64,000 nt of DNA, taken from the NCBI GenBank assembly GCA_003990705.1, contig AP018318.1, positions 2,793,501 through 2,857,500 of the forward strand. The letters are read 5' to 3'. The translations under genes and the position numbers were made by a program. The first letter of the stretch is position 1, and every line of letters starts with the position of its first letter. Source of the stretch: Nostoc sp. HK-01. Its GTDB lineage: Bacteria; Cyanobacteriota; Cyanobacteriia; Cyanobacteriales; Nostocaceae. This document shows, piece by piece, positions 17,090 through 27,429 of this stretch. The notes under the pieces are model-generated. The model worked only from the letters and a program-made list of their open reading frames with translations. It had not been told where the DNA came from and did no database searches.

Positions 17090-17908
17090 ATGAGTCCTAA
17101 ACGCATTTTAGCTTTTAGTTGTTGGTTATTGTTTGCTTGCCTGTTAGTTATTGGTTGTAATCAAGCAAATACACCCAACTCAGCCACAAGTGCTAGTCCA
17201 ACAGCCCAAATAAGCACTTTAACTATTTCAGCCGCAGCTAGTCTCAAAGATGCACTCGAAGCAATCAAACCAATTTACAATCAGGCAAAACCAAACATTA
17301 ACCTAGCCTACAACTTTGGTTCATCGGGTGCTTTGCAGCAGCAAATCGAACAAGGTGCAAAAGTTGATGTTTTCATCTCCGCCGCCACTAAACAAATAGA
17401 TGCACTGGATAAAAAGGGTTTGTTAGTTGATGGTACTAAGAAGAATTTATTGCAAAATCAACTAGTATTAATTGCCCCACAAAATTCTACAAAGATATCA
17501 GATTTTCAAGATTTAACTTCGCCTCAAATTAAGAAAGTTGCTTTAGGTGAACCCAAGAGTGTACCTGCGGGACAATATGCTCAACAAGTTTTGACTGCGT
17601 TAAAACTTGCTGACAAAATTAAAAGTAAATTTGTTTATGCTAAAGATGTACGTCAAGCTTTGAATTATGTAGAATCCGGTAATGTTGATGCTGGGTTAGT
17701 TTACCTTTCCGATGCAAAAAGTACTGCAAAAGTCAAAATAATAACCACTGCACCAGAAAACAGTCATTCTCCGATTGTCTATCCTATTGCAGTACTCAAA
17801 AGTAGTAAAAATATTGATGTATCTAAAGATTTTGAGCAGTTTTTATCTAGTAATAATGCAGCTAAAAGTGTATTTGAAAAACAGGGTTTTGTCTTAGCTG
17901 GAAGTTGA
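17090..17908 (+). CDS. modA: Molybdate ABC transporter, substrate-binding lipoprotein
   Basis: ModA captures molybdate or tungstate outside the cell membrane and hands it to ModB. The 272-residue protein has a lipoprotein signal with Cys23 in LLVIGC. The mature part shows ModA motifs ISAAASLKDALEAI, NFGSSGALQQQIEQGA, DVFISAA, and DVRQALNYVESGNVDAGLVY. It is followed after 43 bases by the fused permease-ATPase gene, which completes the importer. Molybdate is needed for nitrogenase and nitrate reductase in this type of organism. Confidence 0.93.
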   Translation: MSPKRILAFSCWLLFACLLVIGCNQANTPNSATSASPTAQISTLTISAAASLKDALEAIKPIYNQAKPNINLAYNFGSSGALQQQIEQGAKVDVFISAATKQIDALDKKGLLVDGTKKNLLQNQLVLIAPQNSTKISDFQDLTSPQIKKVALGEPKSVPAGQYAQQVLTALKLADKIKSKFVYAKDVRQALNYVESGNVDAGLVYLSDAKSTAKVKIITTAPENSHSPIVYPIAVLKSSKNIDVSKDFEQFLSSNNAAKSVFEKQGFVLAGS

Positions 17909-17951: not shown

Positions 17952-19763
17952 ATGCCACAGGATTTATCACCTCTTTGGATATCTCTGAAAACTTCATTAT
18001 TAGCCACATTTATTACTTTTTTTGTCGGCATAGCTGCGGCTTATTGGATACTCAGTTATCGCGGTAAAGCGAAATCTTTAATTGAGAGTATCTTTGTTGC
18101 ACCACTGATTTTACCCCCAACAGTTGTCGGTTTTTTGTTGTTGTTATTTTTTGGCAAAAATGGGCCTGTGGGGAAACTTATGGAGCCTTTTGACTTGACG
18201 ATTGTCTTTACTTGGTATGGTGCAGCGATCGCCGCGACTGTGGTTTCTTTTCCACTCATGTATAAAACTGCATTAGGAGCTTTTGAACAAATTGATAGTA
18301 ATTTGCTGCGGGTGGCGAGAACCCTAGGCGCAAGTGAATCAACAATCTTTTGGCAAATTAGTTTACCTTTAGCCTTACCGGGAATTTTAGCAGCGACGAC
18401 CTTGGCTTTTGCCCGTGCGTTGGGTGAATTCGGTGCAACGTTAATGCTGGCGGGGAATATTCCCGGACAAACCCAGACGATTCCAATGGCGATTTATTTT
18501 GCTGTGGAAGCAGGCGCAATGGATGAAGCTTGGTTTTGGGCGATCGCAATTATGATCATTTCATTATCGGGAATTTTTGCGGTCAATTTTTGGCAGGAAT
18601 TTAAACAACAAGGAAGACGCAAGGAAGTAGGAACAAGAAAACAAGAAAGACGATTGACTAAATCTTATTCTGCTTCTGCACCAACTTCTGAAATAGGACT
18701 GTTTGTAGACATTGAAAAAAAATTGCCCAGTTTTCATTTGCAAGTTTTCTTCAGTAGCGATGAGCAACCACTAGGCTTGTTAGGCGGTTCCGGCGCAGGT
18801 AAAAGTATGATTTTGCGTTGCATTGCGGGAATTGAAACGCCAACTAGAGGGCGGATAGTTTTGAATGGTAGAGTTTTGTTTGATTCTGAAAAGGGAATTA
18901 ATCTACCCAGCCGCGATCGCCGCATTGGTTTTTTAGTCCAAAATTATGCTCTATTCCCAAATATGACAGTGGCGGAAAACATCGCCTTTGGCTTACCGCA
19001 AGGATTATCTGCGTCAAGTGTGCGCGGACAAATTGAAGAACAACTCATAGCGATGCAATTGCAAGGATTAGGCGATCGCTATCCCCATCAACTTTCAGGT
19101 GGTCAACAGCAGCGGGTGGCTTTAGCTAGAGCTTTGGCGAGTCAGCCAGAGGCTTTACTTTTAGATGAGCCGTTTTCCGCCCTTGATACTCATCTGCGTA
19201 GTCAATTAGAACAGCAAATGACAGCAACTTTAGCCGATTACCAAGGTGTGGCTTTGTTTGTGACTCATAATATGGATGAAGCTTACCGAGTTTGTCCAAA
19301 TTTATTGGTATTGGAAAATGGTGAAGCCGTACATCAAGGTTCTAAATATGATGTTTTCGAGCATCCTGCTAGTGTGAGTGTTGCTCAATTAACTGGTTGT
19401 AAGAATTTTTCTTGCGCTGTCTTTCAAGGAACCCAAAAAATACAAGCACTGGATTGGGGTTGTCACCTCGAAGTTGTCCAACCAATTCCTGATGAACTAT
19501 CTCACGTTGGTATTCGCGCTCATCAACTGATATTTTCCCTTGATTCAACTCAAGTTAATACCTTTCCCTGTTGGCTAGTGCGAACAAGTGAAACACCTCA
19601 TCGAATAACGTTATTTTTAAAACTACATACTGCTCCCAATAATCCCCAAGACTATCATCTGCAAGCGGAGGTTTTCAAAGAAAAATGGGTGCAGATTAAA
19701 GACCAACCTTACCCTTGGTATGTGCGTTTAGACCCCTTACGGTTAATTTTGATGGAAAACTAA
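17952..19763 (+). CDS. modBC: Molybdate ABC transporter, fused permease-ATPase (ModBC)
   Basis: One 603-residue chain combines ModB and ModC. Residues 1-215 are the permease, with about five membrane helices and the coupling loop (ARTLGASESTIFWQISLPLALPG). A charged linker (about 215-240) follows. The rest is the ATPase: Walker A GGSGAGKS with Lys284, signature LSGGQQQR, Walker B ALLLDEP, and a C-terminal regulatory part of about 150 residues related to TOBE/MOP regions. The linker DNA (GGAAGACGCAAGGAAGTAGG region) is purine-rich. Fused modBC genes are known in cyanobacteria. Confidence 0.92.
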   Translation: MPQDLSPLWISLKTSLLATFITFFVGIAAAYWILSYRGKAKSLIESIFVAPLILPPTVVGFLLLLFFGKNGPVGKLMEPFDLTIVFTWYGAAIAATVVSFPLMYKTALGAFEQIDSNLLRVARTLGASESTIFWQISLPLALPGILAATTLAFARALGEFGATLMLAGNIPGQTQTIPMAIYFAVEAGAMDEAWFWAIAIMIISLSGIFAVNFWQEFKQQGRRKEVGTRKQERRLTKSYSASAPTSEIGLFVDIEKKLPSFHLQVFFSSDEQPLGLLGGSGAGKSMILRCIAGIETPTRGRIVLNGRVLFDSEKGINLPSRDRRIGFLVQNYALFPNMTVAENIAFGLPQGLSASSVRGQIEEQLIAMQLQGLGDRYPHQLSGGQQQRVALARALASQPEALLLDEPFSALDTHLRSQLEQQMTATLADYQGVALFVTHNMDEAYRVCPNLLVLENGEAVHQGSKYDVFEHPASVSVAQLTGCKNFSCAVFQGTQKIQALDWGCHLEVVQPIPDELSHVGIRAHQLIFSLDSTQVNTFPCWLVRTSETPHRITLFLKLHTAPNNPQDYHLQAEVFKEKWVQIKDQPYPWYVRLDPLRLILMEN

Positions 19764-19824: not shown

Positions 19825-21642
19825 CTAACGATATTGCTTGGCTTGGGTTTCATATAAATAGGCATAACGACTACCCAACTTGATTAGTTCATCGTGAGTG
19901 CCACTTTCCATAATTGTGCCGTTTTCCATGACATAAATGCGATCGGCCATCTTAACTGTAGATAAGCGATGACTAATTAAAATTGCTGCTTGATTTTGGA
20001 TCAATTGACGGAATTTTTCAAACACTTCATATTCCGCTTTTGGATCCATTGCACTAGTAGGTTCATCTAAAACTATCAACTGAGAATCTCTTAAAAATGC
20101 CCGCGCTAAGGCTATTTTTTGCCATTGACCAATACTTAATTCTTCACCTTGGTCAAATAATTTACCCAAAATTGTGTCATACCCTTTGGGTAATTTAGTA
20201 ATCACATCATCTGCACCAGAACGACGCGCCGCAGTCATAATACTTTCTCGATTAGCGGGCAATTCAATGTTAGCTAACCAAATATTTTCCTGGGCTGTAA
20301 AATTATATTTAGCGTAGTCTTGAAAAATCACGCTGATGTCTCGGCGTAATTCAGCAATTTTATAGTCTCTAATATCAACACCATCAATAGTGATGCTACC
20401 AGCAGTTGGATCATACAAGCGACATAGCAATTTAATTAAAGTTGTTTTTCCCGAACCATTTTCACCAACTAGTGCTACTACTTCTCCCGGTTTGATGTTC
20501 AAATTGATATGATGCAGTGCTTGACGGGTTGTAGTAGAGTATTGAAAACTAACATCATGAAACACAATACCTGTCTGCATTGGTCGCGGTATTGGTTTGG
20601 CATTTACCGGATCAATTAATCTGGGTTTAAGGTCAAGAAACTCGTAGAGATTACCTAAAAATAAATTATCTTCGTAAAGTGCCGAAATGTTAGCTAATAA
20701 ACTTTTAATATCGTTCTGTCCTCGTTGTAGTGCTTGATAATAAAGCACCAAATCACCCAAACGTAGAACTCCGTTGATAGCTTGATAAATAATTAAAGCA
20801 TAAATAGCAAATATGAGAATACCAGCGATCGCCTCGGCTGCAAAGTTAGCTATAAAGCGGCGGGTAAAAATTTTCAGGCTTTCTTTATATATTTGTCTGC
20901 GGATGCGAAGATACCAATTACTAAAGTAGTGACCTAAATCAAATAAGCGAATTTCTTTAGCAAATTGGTCTGATGTCAGCATCCAAGCTAAATAAAAACC
21001 TTGACGTTGCATCGGTGTCCATTTGCGCTGCCAATCATACATAATGCGGCTATATTTGACCCGCACTAACATTGCTGGTAACGCAGCCACAAATAAAACA
21101 CCCAGAATTCCCCAATGGAGTGTTAGTAACAAACCAATCATTGCTACTAAAGAAATACTATTTTGCCCAATCTGTGCTAAACGATTGAGAATTTGCGGTG
21201 GTCGATAAGGTGCTTCTTGTTGCGCTCTTTGTAAGGTATCGTAGTATAAAGAATTTTCGTAATACTCTAGGTCAGCCTCAATAGATTTAGCGTTAATAAT
21301 TCCTTGCATATAGTCAGTTACCCGTTGAGAATGGGCAGTGGTGACTAGTTCTGTTAAGGAGTTAGCCAGAGTGGTTAATAAAGTCACTCCACCAGCGATC
21401 GCAATTAAGACTAAGACATTACGAAATGCGGCTGCTTTGTCTGCTAGGCTCAGGTTGGCAGCTACCGCATCAATAATGAGTTTCGAGAGATAAATTGAGA
21501 TTACTGGTAAGATACCTTGAATAGTCAGTAAGACTACACGGGCGATCGTCCAACCAGGGCTACTTTGCCATACTAAGCGCAATGCAGGCAAAAGTCGCAG
21601 AGTATTTTGCAGCTTATCTCGAATTTTTTTGCCTAGTTGCAT
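19825..21642 (-). CDS. Lasso-peptide cluster ABC exporter (D protein)
   Basis: A 605-residue half-transporter: an N-terminal six-helix exporter domain (about 1-330) and a C-terminal ATPase with Walker A GENGSGKTT, a variant signature LSIGQWQK and Walker B LIVLDEPTSAMD. There is no N-terminal C39 peptidase, as expected where a separate leader peptidase exists. It lies last in the minus-strand lasso cluster, 58 bases after the kinase gene, and by context would export the mature lasso peptides and give self-protection. The export role is inferred from position. The ABC exporter fold is certain. Confidence 0.85.
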   Translation of the reverse strand: MQLGKKIRDKLQNTLRLLPALRLVWQSSPGWTIARVVLLTIQGILPVISIYLSKLIIDAVAANLSLADKAAAFRNVLVLIAIAGGVTLLTTLANSLTELVTTAHSQRVTDYMQGIINAKSIEADLEYYENSLYYDTLQRAQQEAPYRPPQILNRLAQIGQNSISLVAMIGLLLTLHWGILGVLFVAALPAMLVRVKYSRIMYDWQRKWTPMQRQGFYLAWMLTSDQFAKEIRLFDLGHYFSNWYLRIRRQIYKESLKIFTRRFIANFAAEAIAGILIFAIYALIIYQAINGVLRLGDLVLYYQALQRGQNDIKSLLANISALYEDNLFLGNLYEFLDLKPRLIDPVNAKPIPRPMQTGIVFHDVSFQYSTTTRQALHHINLNIKPGEVVALVGENGSGKTTLIKLLCRLYDPTAGSITIDGVDIRDYKIAELRRDISVIFQDYAKYNFTAQENIWLANIELPANRESIMTAARRSGADDVITKLPKGYDTILGKLFDQGEELSIGQWQKIALARAFLRDSQLIVLDEPTSAMDPKAEYEVFEKFRQLIQNQAAILISHRLSTVKMADRIYVMENGTIMESGTHDELIKLGSRYAYLYETQAKQYR

Positions 21643-21700
21643 ATTTAAAATGGCGATCGCAGTAAAGAATGTGCAAATGTCAACTCTAATTTCTTAGACT

Positions 21701-22588
21701 TTAGATTGTAACGGGAGATAGGTTCCCTTGAACAAGGTCATTTTCTACTAACTTCACCAACTCAGGGAGTGCCGCTAACGAACGTTGCCGCCGTAAACTA
21801 TAAATCGGCACTTGTTTAACTACACTCATACATTGCCTAAAATGTTCTTTGAGAAATTCTGGCGCAGTCAGGGCCTGCATTTCTCTAGAGTGTCGGACTA
21901 ATTCTCCAAAGCTTTGTTTTGCTTCTAAAGGAACTATTTCTGCGTGAGTTCCCCAACCTAAAACATAAATTTTTTTCAGAGGTACAGATTGTTGAAAGAA
22001 GCCGTCTTGCAATCGATGAACACGCTTCACAGTTTGGGAATTTAGTAAAGGTAAGCTTTCTGGTACATGGCCAAAAGAAGCCACCGCATCTGGCCATAGC
22101 TTAATTTGCGGAAACCCAGGAATTACTAGCGATTGTTTTTCACCAACTTGAATTGCCAAAACATCATCTGTCAAAATACTGTAGCCATGAGCGTGAAAAC
22201 ATTCTGCTAAAGTTGACTTACCAAAACCTGAGTCAGCCATAAAGGCCACTGCACTACCATCAATGACTACACTACTAGCATGAAGTACAAGCAAGCCCCT
22301 CTGTCTTAGCAATACACAAATAATCACACCCACCAGAAAAGTCCGGATTATATCCTCATCAACACCTGGGTTGGGGTCAATAACAATTTCTTTACCGTCT
22401 TTCACCAACACCATACCGAATTCGGCAATTGTAGCTAATAGATAGTTACCACCATCACTACGCTTTTGTGGTGGTTCATTTAGCTTACCCAAGCGGATAA
22501 CTACATCCGCTGGTTTATCACTGGGGATGAGTTCAGGTAAGGGTAATTCGGAGTGAATGCCTAAGTTATATGCAGTGTAAACGTACAT
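21701..22588 (-). CDS. HPr-kinase-like lasso-peptide tailoring kinase
   Basis: A 295-residue protein with an HPr kinase/phosphorylase-like domain: LHASSVVIDGSAVAFMADSGFGKST with the P-loop at residues 119-126, and a DD pair at 141-142 (ILTDDVLAI) equivalent to the catalytic acidic residues. The N-terminal 90 residues are a separate strand-rich domain. No HPr partner or sugar genes are nearby, so catabolite repression is unlikely. Such kinases occur in lasso clusters of the paeninodin type, where they phosphorylate a C-terminal Ser of the precursor. Here the target would be one of the three adjacent precursors, by inference. Confidence 0.8.
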   Translation of the reverse strand: MYVYTAYNLGIHSELPLPELIPSDKPADVVIRLGKLNEPPQKRSDGGNYLLATIAEFGMVLVKDGKEIVIDPNPGVDEDIIRTFLVGVIICVLLRQRGLLVLHASSVVIDGSAVAFMADSGFGKSTLAECFHAHGYSILTDDVLAIQVGEKQSLVIPGFPQIKLWPDAVASFGHVPESLPLLNSQTVKRVHRLQDGFFQQSVPLKKIYVLGWGTHAEIVPLEAKQSFGELVRHSREMQALTAPEFLKEHFRQCMSVVKQVPIYSLRRQRSLAALPELVKLVENDLVQGNLSPVTI

Positions 22589-22868
22589 CTAAATAATATT
22601 GCTGGATGACTACTAAAAAACTATTTTTTGTTATGCAAAACTCAAGTTTACTAACGCTGTTATGTTGACAAATGTCTGACAATCTGTAACAAAGGAAGCC
22701 ATCAGGAAAACTATTTCCTGATGTTTCGATCATCTGATTTAACTTTGAAAGTAGTCCTAAAAAGCTCTATTTTCTAGGACTACTGAGCTTTATCTTAGTT
22801 CTAGAGTATATTTGGGTGTAATGGTAAAAGTAGTTAGTACTATTACACTAATAACTTGTCTAGAACTA
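22589..22868 (-). other. Spacer with two hairpins between precursor A1 and the kinase
   Basis: This 280-base spacer holds CATCAGGAAA/TTTCCTGATG (22700-22723) and GTAGTCCTA/TAGGACTAC (22751-22783). Neither has a T-run in the minus direction. They may act as partial terminators or mRNA stabilisers, letting the precursors be made in excess over kinase and exporter. No gene is visible. Confidence 0.45.
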
Positions 22869-23054
22869 TTATTGGGGAATAAGTACTCCATCTACGGAAC
22901 CGCTTCGTCCTATGAGTTCACCAGGAAGAGATGGACTATTAGGATCAGTACCGATTTGGAAAGTATCCTTTGGGCCGGGTTTACCAAAAGCATGGGTAAC
23001 GTTTTCAACACTACCGTAGTTTGTTAATTTGGGAGCTTCGTAAGCTTTTTTCAT
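22869..23054 (-). CDS. Lasso-peptide precursor A1
   Basis: A 61-residue precursor starting at the ATG preceded by AGGAGACCC. The leader MKKAYEAPKLTNYGSVENVT matches the lasso pattern with Tyr5, Pro8, Leu10, Gly14 and Thr20. Thr at position -2 places cleavage after His21, giving a core that begins AFGKPGPKD with Asp at core position 9, right for a nine-residue macrolactam ring. The core then runs 31 more residues (40 in all), including GRSGSVDGVLIPQ. A longer in-frame upstream reading to 23123 is rejected because it passes through the junction repeat. Confidence 0.85.
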   Translation of the reverse strand: MKKAYEAPKLTNYGSVENVTHAFGKPGPKDTFQIGTDPNSPSLPGELIGRSGSVDGVLIPQ

Positions 23055-23100
23055 TGTTTGGGTCTCCTGTTGGTTTTGTTTATTTCTTACTAAACTAGAT

Positions 23101-23211
23101 GTTGGCTTTGAGACATTCACCAAATCAGTCTAGGTAGGAGCAGGCTAAAGCCGCACTGCCCCTAGTCAGACTTATGGTTTTAATGGGGATATAATTCAGA
23201 TCAAGAGCAAG
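23101..23211 (-). repeat. Junction repeat, copy a
   Basis: First of three related blocks in the precursor array. It contains TAGGTAGGAGCAGGCTAAA and CTGCCCCTAGTCAGACTTAT, which can fold into a stem. It lies between precursor A2 and A1, and is the most diverged copy beyond the stem (the part like the cyclase 3' end is poorly kept). Confidence 0.75.
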
Positions 23212-23221
23212 TATTAAATAT

Positions 23222-23422
23222 TTATCTTCCTCGAGAGCTACCTACAGGAATGATTATTCCATCAGCCGCAGAACCACTCAGCCCTAGTACTGAACCAGGA
23301 ATAGGAGTAGGATTATTTCCAATGAAGATAGTATCCGCCGAAGCATCGTCACCAAAAGCATTAGTAACATCTTGAACACTGCCGTAGTTTGTTAATTGAG
23401 GAGCTTTGTAAGCTTTTTTCAT
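23222..23422 (-). CDS. Lasso-peptide precursor A2
   Basis: A 66-residue precursor. The leader MKKAYKAPQLTNYGSVQDVT again keeps Tyr5, Pro8, Leu10, Gly14 and Thr20. The predicted core starts AFGDDASAD with Asp at core position 9 (additional Asp at 4 and 5). It is 45 residues long and ends VGSSRGR, unlike the other two. It shares the middle PTPIPGSVLGLSGS with A3. AAGAGACAG serves as ribosome binding site. It lies between junction repeats a and b. Confidence 0.84.
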   Translation of the reverse strand: MKKAYKAPQLTNYGSVQDVTNAFGDDASADTIFIGNNPTPIPGSVLGLSGSAADGIIIPVGSSRGR

Positions 23423-23550
23423 ATTTTCTGTCTCTTGCTTGCTTCGTTTATCTTTTGCTGGAATATATAGCCGTAGTCATTTAGGGTAGGTCAATATTGA
23501 TTACTCAAAGCCTGATAGCTAATGGCTTGATACTCAGCACTTTGCCATAA

Positions 23551-23660
23551 ATATTGGCTTGGAGATCCTGCCCAATTTAGTCTAGGTAGGAGCAGGCTAA
23601 AAATGCACTGCCCCTAGTCAGACTTATGGTTTGTTTTGGTTATGATTTAGCCAAAGAGCG
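23551..23660 (-). repeat. Junction repeat, copy b
   Basis: The stem arms are at 23580-23595 and 23608-23623 (GTCTAGGTAGGAGCAG against CTGCCCCTAGTCAGAC; two strong helices around a 3x3 internal mismatch). To its right the sequence resembles the last codons of the cyclase gene (ACCATAAGTCTGACTAG and AGCCAAAGAGCG in plus orientation). This copy separates A3 from A2. Confidence 0.75.
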
Positions 23661-23705
23661 TATGCGAGAAATTACCAATTTGGTATTGCTCCATTTTTCT
23701 TTGTC

Positions 23706-23885
23706 CTAGTTGGGAATGAGTACCCCATTTTGGGAACCACTGAGTCCAATAGTTGAACCAGGAATAGGAGTAGGATTACTTCCAATTAGGAAGGTATCTC
23801 TTCCACCTGAGTGACCAAAAGCATTGGTAATATTTTGAACACTACCGTAGTTTGTAAGTTGAGGAGCTTCGTAAGCTTTTTTCAT
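23706..23885 (-). CDS. Lasso-peptide precursor A3
   Basis: A 59-residue precursor read directly from the minus strand (59 codons and TAG). The leader is MKKAYEAPQLTNYGSVQNIT, followed by Asn21 and a predicted core starting AFGHSGGRD, again with Asp at core position 9. The core is 38 residues and ends GVLIPN. AGGAGACTTAACA precedes the ATG. It is the first precursor after the cyclase gene in transcription order. It is too short to be noticed by common length cut-offs. Confidence 0.84.
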   Translation of the reverse strand: MKKAYEAPQLTNYGSVQNITNAFGHSGGRDTFLIGSNPTPIPGSTIGLSGSQNGVLIPN

Positions 23886-23928
23886 TGTTAAGTCTCCTGT
23901 TGTTTTTGTTGATTTGTTACTGGACTAG

Positions 23929-24037
23929 ATATTGGCTTTGAGATATTCACCAATTCAGCCTAGGTAGGAGCAGGCTAAAAATGCGCTACCCCTAGTCCGA
24001 CTTATGGTTTATTTGGTTATGGTTCAGCCAAAGAGCG
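23929..24037 (-). repeat. Junction repeat, copy c (overlaps cyclase 3' end)
   Basis: Third copy, with TAGGTAGGAGCAGGCTAAA and CTACCCCTAGTCCGACTTAT. Its right part includes the last codons and stop of the cyclase gene (stop at 23992). This identifies the source of the fragments in copies a and b. Confidence 0.78.
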
Positions 24038-26022
24038 AGTGTTAAAGCTTTCCAACCTGGAATTGTTGAATCATCATTTACATCCTCTGTTGTAGATATA
24101 AGATTGTCGTAGTATCTGCGGAGCGTGTTGAGATCCACAAATTCTTGAAGATTATTGGCATCATTGGTAATTACTTCATCTAACAGCTGCCGATCAAAAT
24201 GCAATAACCCACGCTGAAAGTTGGGTGTCATATTGGTTTTGCCACCACGCCACTGTACTTCTTGGGGAAGAATACCTTCTAAACCTCGCCGCATCACTAG
24301 GCGAGACCATCCTTGATTGAGTTTTTGTTCTGGTGGTAAAGATAGGCAAAATTCAATCAAGCGTTTATCCATAAAGGGATGACGTGACTCTAGAGAAAAT
24401 GCGGCAGAACATAGGTCGCCCAATTCCAGTACTGTGGTGAATAAGGCGGAATTTAAGGTACGACATTGTTCCTCTCTCACTGTGATAGCTGGATTTTGGT
24501 CTTGATCATGAGATGGTGTTAGAGGATTTATCCCGACTTGTTTAGCGAAGTGAGGGTTGATTAAAGAAGTGACTTGAGGTTGATTTTGTTTGTGACCGCG
24601 GAGCGATCGCCAAATCTTCAAGATATATTGAGGAACTAAGGGTTTAATTCCGTAAGTGACGAACAATTTCCGCCTCGAAACTCGAAAATGCTGACTAATT
24701 TGCAACGCAGTTCGCACAAAAGTGAGCATTTTTCTCTGTTTGACTAACTCCTGTAAGTAGGGAATGGCATATCCGTAGAAAATGGCTGCCAATGAGGTAT
24801 CAAAGTGTTGAGATATGGCTTGAGCTTCTTGGATAAATGTCTGCCATTTTCCTTGACGCGCTAACTCCGCAAAATAGGTTATACCGTGAGATACTGTTGT
24901 ATCACCATCAAAACCATCTAGGGAAATGCGTATACCTGCTTGTTGAGCAGCCCGATTTAATCCCCATACCAGAAAATGGCTAGGCCCAATAAAGGGTTCT
25001 TCCATGTATTTATAGTAGTCCTGCCATTCCGATAGAGGGCCTGATTGATCGGCGTGGACATAATGGGGGATAAATCCGCCCTGGTTTAATACAGGGTTAA
25101 TATATTGACGTTCGTCGCACTCTGGAACTTCTTCAAAAATATTTGAGAAAGTGTGCAGTTGTGCGCCTTTTTCTTGCAATATATCTCTGGCTACACAAGC
25201 AATGGAAGATGAGTCTAAGCCACCACTCAAGTGACAACTAACAGGAAATGCACTGCGTAAGCGACAACGAACTGCTTCAGTAAACACCTCTCGGAAAGCT
25301 GCTGCATATTCTGCATCTGAGTTTAGTCTTAACTCTTGACCCACTTTTAAAGACCAGTAGGCGTGAGATTGTAATCCACCCGTGTAACTCACTGTCATTG
25401 TGTGAGCCGGAGGTAATCTATAGATATTTTTATAGGCAGTAATAGATTTATCTTCTGTAAATGGGTGTAAATGGTTGGCGATCGCAATTTCATTCACCTT
25501 GTTCGGCACTTCTGGTAAACTCAAAAGCGCTTTCATTTCCGAAGCAAAGTAAAATTGCTGTCCAGGTTGATAGTAATAATATAAGGGTTTGATGCCAAAA
25601 TGATCTCTGGCACAGAATAATATCTGCTTCTGTTGATCCCAGATCACAAATGCAAAATCACCCAATAATTTGTTTGGACATTGCTCACCCCATTTTGCAT
25701 AAGCCGCCAGTACTAACTGGCTATCTGTGATTTTTTCGGGTGGGCAATTATCAATGGATAATGCAGATATTAGTTCATCTCGGTTATCTATACGGATATC
25801 TGCTGTAATGACTAACTCGCCATTATGATCAACTAACGGTAATTTCTCTAGCAGCGATTCTGGAGTACTCCACAGCATCCGATGACCTAGACCAATTGCG
25901 CCAGAACACCAGACATCTGCACCATCAGGCCCCCGATGAGCGATCGCATCTACCATCACAGCCAGCTTTTGTGGCTCAACTGACTGACTATCTAGATTGT
26001 AAATGCCAACTATACCACTCAT
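23992..26022 (-). CDS. Lasso macrolactam synthetase (asparagine-synthetase-like C protein)
   Basis: A 676-residue homologue of AsnB that in lasso pathways adenylates the ring Asp/Glu side chain and closes the macrolactam with the core N-terminus. The N-terminal part (1-210) is a class II glutaminase-like fold starting MSGIVGIY. The nucleophile Cys2 of true glutaminases is Ser here, consistent with not using glutamine. The synthetase part contains the ATP pyrophosphate loop SGGLDSS at 266-272. It starts 3 bases after the B2 gene's stop and is followed by the precursor array. Confidence 0.9.
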   Translation of the reverse strand: MSGIVGIYNLDSQSVEPQKLAVMVDAIAHRGPDGADVWCSGAIGLGHRMLWSTPESLLEKLPLVDHNGELVITADIRIDNRDELISALSIDNCPPEKITDSQLVLAAYAKWGEQCPNKLLGDFAFVIWDQQKQILFCARDHFGIKPLYYYYQPGQQFYFASEMKALLSLPEVPNKVNEIAIANHLHPFTEDKSITAYKNIYRLPPAHTMTVSYTGGLQSHAYWSLKVGQELRLNSDAEYAAAFREVFTEAVRCRLRSAFPVSCHLSGGLDSSSIACVARDILQEKGAQLHTFSNIFEEVPECDERQYINPVLNQGGFIPHYVHADQSGPLSEWQDYYKYMEEPFIGPSHFLVWGLNRAAQQAGIRISLDGFDGDTTVSHGITYFAELARQGKWQTFIQEAQAISQHFDTSLAAIFYGYAIPYLQELVKQRKMLTFVRTALQISQHFRVSRRKLFVTYGIKPLVPQYILKIWRSLRGHKQNQPQVTSLINPHFAKQVGINPLTPSHDQDQNPAITVREEQCRTLNSALFTTVLELGDLCSAAFSLESRHPFMDKRLIEFCLSLPPEQKLNQGWSRLVMRRGLEGILPQEVQWRGGKTNMTPNFQRGLLHFDRQLLDEVITNDANNLQEFVDLNTLRRYYDNLISTTEDVNDDSTIPGWKALTLALWLNHNQINHKSD

Positions 26023-26025
26023 GAT

Positions 26026-26457
26026 TTATATCCCTGCAAAAGACGGCAATGGAGTAAAGCGTGAGAGATCAGGAAGATAGCCGATGACTACTTGTCCTTG
26101 AGTTTCAATCCAAGCATGAGCTTCTAAGTTTCCAGCTTCGCCTTTAACGACTCCGATACGTAATTCGGGTGAATAACCATAGCGAGTCATTAATATTTGG
26201 CAAGTTAAAGCCCTCGCTAGGCATTTAGCTCCACCAGGGGTGTAACGTGTGCTAATGTTGATCGCCCAAACAATTTTATTTAAAGAAACTGGTTTTAGAC
26301 TGGAGTTTGGCTGACTGTGTTGATTTATGAGTTTTCTTAAAGTATTAAAGGATAGTAACCGCATTCCTAGCCGCACTAATCCCAGTAACATGAACGTACT
26401 TAATAAAAATTGGCGATCGCTGTTGGTTAGTTGCAGTATTTTAAGCAGACGTTTCAT
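26026..26457 (-). CDS. Lasso leader peptidase (B2, transglutaminase-like)
   Basis: A 143-residue B2 protein that cleaves the precursor leader. The cysteine-protease triad of the family can be seen: Cys79 in GGAKCLARAL, His114 in EAHAWIE and Asp130 in YLPDLSRF. The N-terminal helical part precedes it. It overlaps the B1 gene by 17 bases and nearly touches the cyclase gene, so B1-B2-C form one tight operon. A split B1/B2 arrangement is usual in Firmicutes- and cyanobacteria-type lasso clusters. Confidence 0.9.
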   Translation of the reverse strand: MKRLLKILQLTNSDRQFLLSTFMLLGLVRLGMRLLSFNTLRKLINQHSQPNSSLKPVSLNKIVWAINISTRYTPGGAKCLARALTCQILMTRYGYSPELRIGVVKGEAGNLEAHAWIETQGQVVIGYLPDLSRFTPLPSFAGI

Positions 26458-26746
26458 TCTTAATTTCTATCAATCCTTTCGCTGCTAAGTCTTCTAGCAA
26501 ATCTGAAATATCAAGTTTACATACCTCTGCTTCTACTTCATATTCTGCTAAGATTGCATCTTGAATTTCTTTGATAGTCTTAGGTGATTGAATGAAATTC
26601 CATATACTAGCGCCTACTTGATTCAGTCCATAATAAGCACCAGATTTAATATCAAGTATGACCACTTCTCCTTGTAATTCTGAACAAATTTGTTCTCTTG
26701 AGGCTACGACACTAACATTTTCAGATGAACTTAATTTTGTAAGCAT
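26441..26746 (-). CDS. Lasso B1 protein (PqqD-like leader-recognition element)
   Basis: A 101-residue protein with the PqqD/RRE fold: LQGEVVILDIKSGAYYGLNQ and a following SIWNFIQ helix, then two helices (EIQDAILAEYEV and LDISDLLEDL) and a final strand (GLIEI). It would bind the YxxP part of the precursor leaders and bring them to B2. First gene of the cluster in transcription order. The promoter must lie in the AT-rich region 26747-26950. Confidence 0.88.
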   Translation of the reverse strand: MLTKLSSSENVSVVASREQICSELQGEVVILDIKSGAYYGLNQVGASIWNFIQSPKTIKEIQDAILAEYEVEAEVCKLDISDLLEDLAAKGLIEIKNETSA

Positions 26747-27355: not shown

Positions 27356-27429
27356 TCGGGATGACTGGATTCGAACCAGCGGCCCCTTCGTCCCGAACGA
27401 AGTGCGCTACCAAGCTGCGCTACATCCCG
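27356..27429 (-). tRNA. tRNA-Pro (CGG)
   Basis: On the minus strand the acceptor stem CGGGATG pairs with CATCCCG, the D stem is GCGC, the anticodon stem is CTTCG/CGAAG with loop TTCGGGA (anticodon CGG, Pro), and the T arm GCTGG TTCGAAT CCAGT is standard. Discriminator base A. The 3' CCA is not encoded (ACA follows). Confidence 0.93.

Follow-up and report, generated by a model that had tools for sequence, protein, structure and literature searches.

We examined a 64,000-nucleotide stretch of the Nostoc sp. HK-01 genome (7.5 Mb, 8 contigs), the whole of which is called the window here, and identified in it a complete lasso-peptide gene set that runs on the minus strand from 26746 to 19825 in the order B1, B2, C, A1, A2, A3, K, D. 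The eight genes are listed below with their window coordinates and with profile scores set against the respective cut-offs.

26441..26746, minus strand: B1, PqqD-like RiPP recognition element (RRE), 101 amino acids (aa); NF033536 80.2 bits vs 80, PF05402 73.7 vs 23.4
26026..26457, minus strand: B2, leader peptidase, 143 aa; NF033537 112.6 bits vs 33, 57-row alignment
23992..26022, minus strand: C, AsnB-like lasso cyclase, 676 aa; NF033535 (cyanobacterial lasso cyclase) 1047.9 bits vs 525
23706..23885, minus strand: A1 precursor, 21-aa leader and predicted 38-aa core, predicted ring Ala1-Asp9, motif Ser30 (codon 23735-23733); NF033528 48.5 bits vs 33
23222..23422, minus strand: A2 precursor, 21-aa leader and predicted 45-aa core, predicted ring Ala1-Asp9, motif Ser30 in GSAAD; NF033528 43.5 bits vs 33
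22869..23054, minus strand: A3 precursor, 21-aa leader and predicted 40-aa core, predicted ring Ala1-Asp9, motif Ser32 in GSVD; NF033528 43.3 bits vs 33
21701..22588, minus strand: K, HprK-like kinase, 295 aa, with His103, Lys124, Asp141 and Asp142; conserved residues, profile search and predicted fold
19825..21642, minus strand: D, MsbA-like ABC exporter, 605 aa; PF00005 120.8 bits, TIGR02203 291.9 bits, under its cut-off of 602

Curated NCBIfam lasso cut-offs were exceeded by B1, B2, C and all three precursors, B1 clearing its own by a narrow margin, and the scores of A1, A2 and A3 place them in NF033528 (lasso_cyano). Hallmarks of a lasso system found here are an RRE (B1), a transglutaminase-like B2 and an AsnB-like C, together with precursors having a YxxPxL leader, Thr at position -2 and Asp at core position 9. 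The start of A3 is the ATG at 23054, which is preceded by AGGAG, and a longer ORF (open reading frame) started by TTG is unnecessary. By gene content, the operon has a full lasso-peptide set and belongs to the cyanobacterial (lasso_cyano) kind. A sequence-only reading of the same DNA had proposed this eight-gene cluster, with lasso roles for B1, B2, C and the precursors and an ABC exporter in D; the genes lie where it placed them, and the family searches and the PF00005 match of D agree with the roles. The conserved tail Ser, the unusual core length and the RNA hairpin described below were absent from it. These last features, with the Ser as the likely kinase site, and a Gly-type B2 appear to be what is new in the cluster, which otherwise looks like an ordinary lasso cluster. 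NF033528 scored above its cut-off in 63 of 217 Nostocaceae genomes (matching at E <= 0.001 in 90) and the cyclase model NF033535 in 17 of 386 genomes drawn across the phylum; thus, the cluster belongs to an established, curated kind. The closest named relatives found were Nostoc strains, with K being 96% identical in Nostoc sp. LEGE 06077.

For comparison we assembled 94 distinct precursor sequences, the window's own three excluded, from 9 cyanobacterial loci and 60 fetched loci, 58 of which are from the window's family and two from its order. As the fetched loci were picked from hits of the precursor and cyclase models, mostly top-scoring ones, they are no random sample. K was present in 59 of the 60, and the remaining locus had no lasso gene at all. 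The ORF filter demanded YxxPx[LVIFM]xxxG with a Thr 4 to 11 residues past that Gly, so these leader residues were selected rather than tested, while neither Asp9 nor the tail Ser played a part in selection. From 121 precursor ORFs, 101 of them distinct, we removed the ORFs from loci outside the cyanobacteria, L011 and L012 (L013 yielded none), and five judged not to belong (L105_16089, L105_16386, L112_1008, L122_8059 and L128_18735). The two L105 ORFs have a lasso-like leader and lie about 8 kb beyond the precursor of their own cluster, without Asp9 and in no cluster that we could see; had both been kept, Asp9 would count 90 of 96.

The leaders of A1, A2 and A3 all carry Tyr5, Pro8, Leu10, Gly14 and Thr20, as had been read from the sequence. 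In every one of the 94 relatives the Thr stands exactly six residues past the leader Gly, and we set the core start at two residues after the Thr. Family models and these precursors support the previously assigned cleavage after residue 21. All three cores begin with AFG and have Asp at position 9; in 90 relatives the Asp likewise occupies core position 9, and in the other 4 (L006_6048, L081_2599, L098_8036 and L126_9860) it is found at position 10, which would imply a ten-residue ring in these four. Positions 4 to 8 are variable, and core residue 1 is most often Ala (34), Ile (19), Val (16) or Phe (10). The nine-residue Ala1-Asp9 ring of the earlier reading is well supported by this conservation and by the family models.

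The predicted cores are long, with 38 (A1), 45 (A2) and 40 (A3) residues, and those of the 94 relatives range from 26 to 58 with a median of 43. In a 2026 review, pandonodin is given as the lasso peptide with the longest tail, with 33 residues overall (PMC13352647), and a 36-residue cyanobacterial lasso peptide has already been predicted in print (PMC9332814). The tails vary in length and sequence apart from a single conserved spot, a Ser in the setting [Gly/Asp]-Ser-x-[Asp/Asn]. In the alignment, 87 of the 94 rows keep this Ser, no other tail column being as constant, and it is the sole hydroxyl residue of the core that nearly all relatives share. The residue before it is Gly in 79 rows and Asp in 12, and the next conserved column holds Asp (72), Asn (15) or Ser (7). 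The strict form [GD]Sx[DN] was found in 75 of 94 tails, whereas 500 shuffles of the tails, which count related sequences as independent, gave 11.1 on average and never more than 21. In A2 the motif reads GSAAD, with a spacing one residue longer.

Among 80 precursors with a looser form of the motif, its Ser lies anywhere from core position 23 to 44 with 4 to 27 residues behind it, and is encoded by TCT (29), TCA (21), TCC (16), TCG (10) or AGT (4). Since all four TCN codons and AGT occur, selection appears to act on the amino acid and not on the DNA. The motif was found beside both types of exporter, those 39-43% and those 74-98% identical to D, and in cores with and without a Cys pair. Two Cys are present in 44 of the 94 cores, one in 1 and none in 49, and the window's cores have none; two-Cys cores such as those of L079 and L118 probably form a disulfide loop in the tail.

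In Pfam, K has just a weak match to HprK (E 0.0035, under the cut-off). On the other hand, a profile of 12 K homologues retrieved solved HPr kinases first (E 4.6e-06), and the predicted fold of K is of the HprK/PEPCK kind, with the 50 matches listed in a VIA-align fold comparison being all PEPCK, the sister family, and none HprK. His103, Lys124 and Asp142 are conserved in 66 of 66 rows and Asp141 in 64, at the spacing of H148-K169-D186-D187 in BsfK (PMC10368454). K thus combines the His-Lys-Asp-Asp residues with the HprK-like predicted fold of lasso-tailoring kinases, which favours the HPr-kinase-like assignment made before.

Which residue K may act on is suggested by the cores themselves. The paeninodin-type kinases tested so far phosphorylate a C-terminal Ser (PMC9266682), whereas the last residues of the window's cores are Asn, Arg and Gln, and only 8 of the 94 relatives end in Ser. 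Core residue 3 is Gly in the window's three cores and in 85 relatives (Ser in 1), and neither the ring of A3 nor that of 12 relatives contains Ser or Thr. As the cores lack a C-terminal Ser, residue 3 is Gly and the A3 ring has no Ser or Thr, we propose that K phosphorylates the internal tail Ser, before B2 and C act. There are precedents for a non-C-terminal site: BsfK phosphorylates ring Ser3 (PMC10368454), and LppK phosphorylates Ser3 of a linear 45-residue core (PMC13381572).

In B2, Cys79 and His114 are present in 57 of 57 rows. The earlier reading had assigned a Cys-His-Asp peptidase; the Cys and His stand, but the usual place of the Asp, 12 residues past the His, is Gly126 and is Gly in all 57 rows. 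We take this place to be that of Asp194, the catalytic Asp of McjB. That McjB has a Cys-His-Asp triad is borne out by PMC11420955, though its numbering is not. The 32 B2 rows from other cyanobacterial loci have Gly (20), Asp (8) or Glu (1) at His+12, with 3 unread. Because some of these rows have Gly and others Asp, there seem to be two cyanobacterial B2 subtypes, the window's B2 being of the Gly type, in which another residue may take over the role of the Asp. When plasmids were searched for B2, just two distant relatives turned up, and the plasmid-borne B2 of Halopiger and Antarctobacter also has Gly at His+12. Residue 2 of the cyclase C is Ser in 66 of 68 rows. Glutamine-using AsnB requires Cys at position 2, and with Ser in its place the glutaminase part of C is probably idle.

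A stem-loop of about 60 nt precedes each A gene:

23949..24009, minus strand: RNA hairpin 1, upstream of A1 and overlapping the final codons of C; fold z -2.26
23571..23630, minus strand: RNA hairpin 2, upstream of A2; fold z -4.72
23118..23179, minus strand: RNA hairpin 3, upstream of A3; fold z -4.13

In the whole genome, the exact hairpin pattern occurs solely at the three A genes. We considered a genome-wide repeat and rejected it, as matches with up to 3 mismatches numbered 34 vs 30 in a reversed control. Of the 60 fetched loci, 14 also have the element ahead of precursors, some of them with a K just 49 to 67% identical; it does not precede every precursor, being missing at the middle precursor of L101 and at the second precursor of L097. 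Fold stability, conservation and pairing carry the case for it: with 12 elements taken from 28 distinct ones, the share of paired cells was 93.1%, vs at most 46.3% when the structure was slid along. Covariation in the same 12 was weak: both partners changed in just two pairs, and shuffles showed more pair types. The hairpins before A2 and A3 sit within repeats (D1 and D4), and the A2 copy carries a relic of the end of C; hence the unit consisting of the end of C, the hairpin and the A gene was probably duplicated. At gathering thresholds, the only known RNA family around the cluster was a tRNA at 27356-27429, and scans for promoters (26 vs 23.9) and terminators (7 vs 6.0) did not rise above chance. 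It is likely that the hairpin sets the level or the stability of the A-gene message.

From the genes and families, the conservation of ring, tail and hairpin, and the kinase residues, all of which are observed, we infer the following course, including threading, the order of steps, the phosphosite and the hairpin's role. B1 would bind the YxxPxL...G leader and present the precursor to the enzymes. K would then phosphorylate the motif Ser (Ser30, Ser30 and Ser32 of the A1, A2 and A3 cores), its substrate most likely being the entire precursor, with help from B1. B2 would cleave after residue 21, one residue past Thr20, and C would activate Asp9 with ATP and link it to the Ala1 amino group, closing a nine-residue ring that encircles a tail of 29 (A1), 36 (A2) or 31 (A3) residues. 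All three products would be exported by D, and the mRNA hairpin before each A gene probably makes the precursor message more abundant or more stable than those of the enzyme genes. As an account of the whole locus, a lasso operon with nine-residue rings, long tails, K acting on the tail Ser and a role for the hairpin is the best explanation that we have, and we give it a little better than an even chance.

Perhaps the tail motif is instead a handle unrelated to the kinase, such as a site for a C-terminal protease, a plug or a contact with C, in which case the product would have fewer than 38 residues or the Ser would be structural, and K would modify another residue. The wide range of core lengths is what a removable follower would give, and the 33 residues of the longest-tailed lasso peptide in the 2026 review point the same way (PMC13352647). 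However, no second peptidase was recognised within the cluster in the ORF list or in Pfam and NCBIfam scans, the motif accompanies two exporter types, and a fixed C-terminal cut is not obvious because the position of the Ser shifts and the residues behind it range so widely in number. We regard this explanation as possible but rather unlikely. It is more doubtful still that the product is an unthreaded branched ring, or linear and phosphorylated as in the LPP family. LPPs share the YxxP leader, the RRE, an HprK-like kinase and an MsbA-like exporter, and the core of one LPP has 45 residues (PMC13381572); threading would presumably also be difficult with a long tail. Yet LPPs have no cyclase and use a different peptidase, of SpI type (PMC13381572), whereas the window has B2 and a C that scores far above the cut-off of the curated cyanobacterial lasso family, and Asp9 is nearly invariant. 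We would be most surprised to find K targeting a ring or leader residue: BsfK and LppK, both tested, do act at core residue 3 (PMC10368454, PMC13381572), but this residue is a Gly here, rings without Ser or Thr occur, and leader residue 15, a Ser in the window, is Ser in just 32 of the 94 relatives.

The proposal that K acts on the tail Ser was also set against a kinase tree, a quick one with majority labels and the looser motif, built from 73 kinases (the window's and 72 of 84 K ORFs, those with an adjacent precursor); one label in it is spoiled by a stray ORF (L122). Tail type changed 8 times on the tree vs a shuffled mean of 17.1, with 0 of 200 shuffles as low. The main clade has 58 kinases, 54 of them beside the motif, and a neighbouring group of five has adjacent precursors without it; in this group, all precursors in L111 and L177 and one in L168 end in Ser.

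Several points weigh against the proposal. The remaining four kinases of the main clade lack the motif label, and L164, whose unlike tail meets the looser label only, falls outside that clade. Moreover, whole clusters are inherited as units, kinase clade and tail type included, so the tree cannot count as independent proof. The strict motif is missing in 19 of the 94 precursors, one of which has no tail Ser at all (a Cys is at the motif place), and the tail shuffles share the dependence among relatives noted above. The C-terminal Ser that tested paeninodin-type kinases use is seen in only 8 of the 94 cores, and the motif could instead serve C, B2 or folding. The lasso product, its threading and its phosphorylation are predictions from sequence, and as B2 has no Asp at the usual place, the mechanism of this enzyme is likewise putative. 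Nine of 31 loci bearing B2 lack K, and just one of these, the cyanobacterial locus L189, has a readable precursor; its core has no Ser, which fits the tail Ser as kinase site, though in one case only.

Compared with known systems, the window's precursors and cyclase resemble the NF033528/NF033535 family in scoring above its curated cut-offs. The NF033528 model covers 35 positions of the leader and ring region, leaving the tail motif uncovered, and the kinase site and the hairpin lie outside it. The paeninodin-like lasso peptides (PadeK, ThcoK, SyanK and PsmK) share an HprK-like kinase with His-Lys-Asp-Asp beside lasso genes (PMC9266682); in these the C-terminal Ser is phosphorylated, whereas the conserved Ser of the window's cores is internal. 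BsfA/BsfK of Bradymonas sediminis share with the window the HprK-like kinase and its catalytic spacing, a non-Ser C-terminus and split B1/B2, and differ in having ring Ser3 as the site, Ile(-2) for Thr(-2) and a Gly1-Asp8 ring (PMC10368454). Pandonodin shares the exceptionally long tail, but at 33 aa it is shorter than the 38 to 45 predicted here (PMC13352647), and it is of class IV with a tail disulfide, unlike the window's Cys-free cores.

No isolated cyanobacterial lasso peptide and no phosphate within a lasso tail are described in the accessible parts of ten papers (PMC9332814, PMC9967302, PMC11392904, PMC8600333, PMC10885120, PMC9266682, PMC13352647, PMC10368454, PMC11420955 and PMC13381572) or among the best-ranked literature matches, a scope outside which subscription literature mostly lies. 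Where these papers deal with cyanobacterial lasso genes, they only predict or mention them (e.g. PMC9332814), and lasso peptides are called underexplored in cyanobacteria (PMC9967302). The product of the window had been thought undescribed, and within this literature it is; the type of cluster, on the other hand, was already in NCBIfam, and the 36-residue prediction was already in print.

We consider it an even bet that K is a motif-reading kinase for an internal tail Ser in [Gly/Asp]-Ser-x-[Asp/Asn] and that this widespread lineage makes lasso peptides longer than any we found described. If so, phosphate sites would fall into three classes, with the internal tail Ser added to the C-terminal Ser and core Ser3. 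What the phosphate does for lasso peptides is called unresolved in PMC9266682, and a Ser motif kept in most tails offers a direct and cheap handle on where the kinase acts. It may also yield a short kinase tag for peptide engineering and open a route to lasso peptides of more than 33 residues.

Related clusters with K, B2 and D were seen in L165, L166, L167, L169 and L172 (genomes G101, G127, G278, G030 and G376), with no C homologue at the threshold used. The first four also bear B1 and two precursors, and L165 has two glycosyltransferases. Their precursors have cores reading ..VGGSGGF.TT.. or near it, without Asp or Glu at core positions 7 to 9; these clusters may encode a cyanobacterial linear phospho- and glycopeptide, LPP-like but with B2. 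In L179 (G159 C29), the B2 match contains two in-frame stops, so this cluster may be decaying. On plasmid pHALXA01 of Halopiger xanaduensis (L196), PqqD, B2 and AsnB genes are consecutive, with an ABC transporter and a nucleotidyltransferase nearby. Because these three genes adjoin and the transporter is near, L196 is possibly an archaeal lasso cluster. Beyond D, the window holds a single 603-aa ORF at 17952-19763, next to a protein at 17090-17908; judged from the sequence, the ORF resembles a molybdate permease fused to its ATPase and its neighbour is ModA-like.

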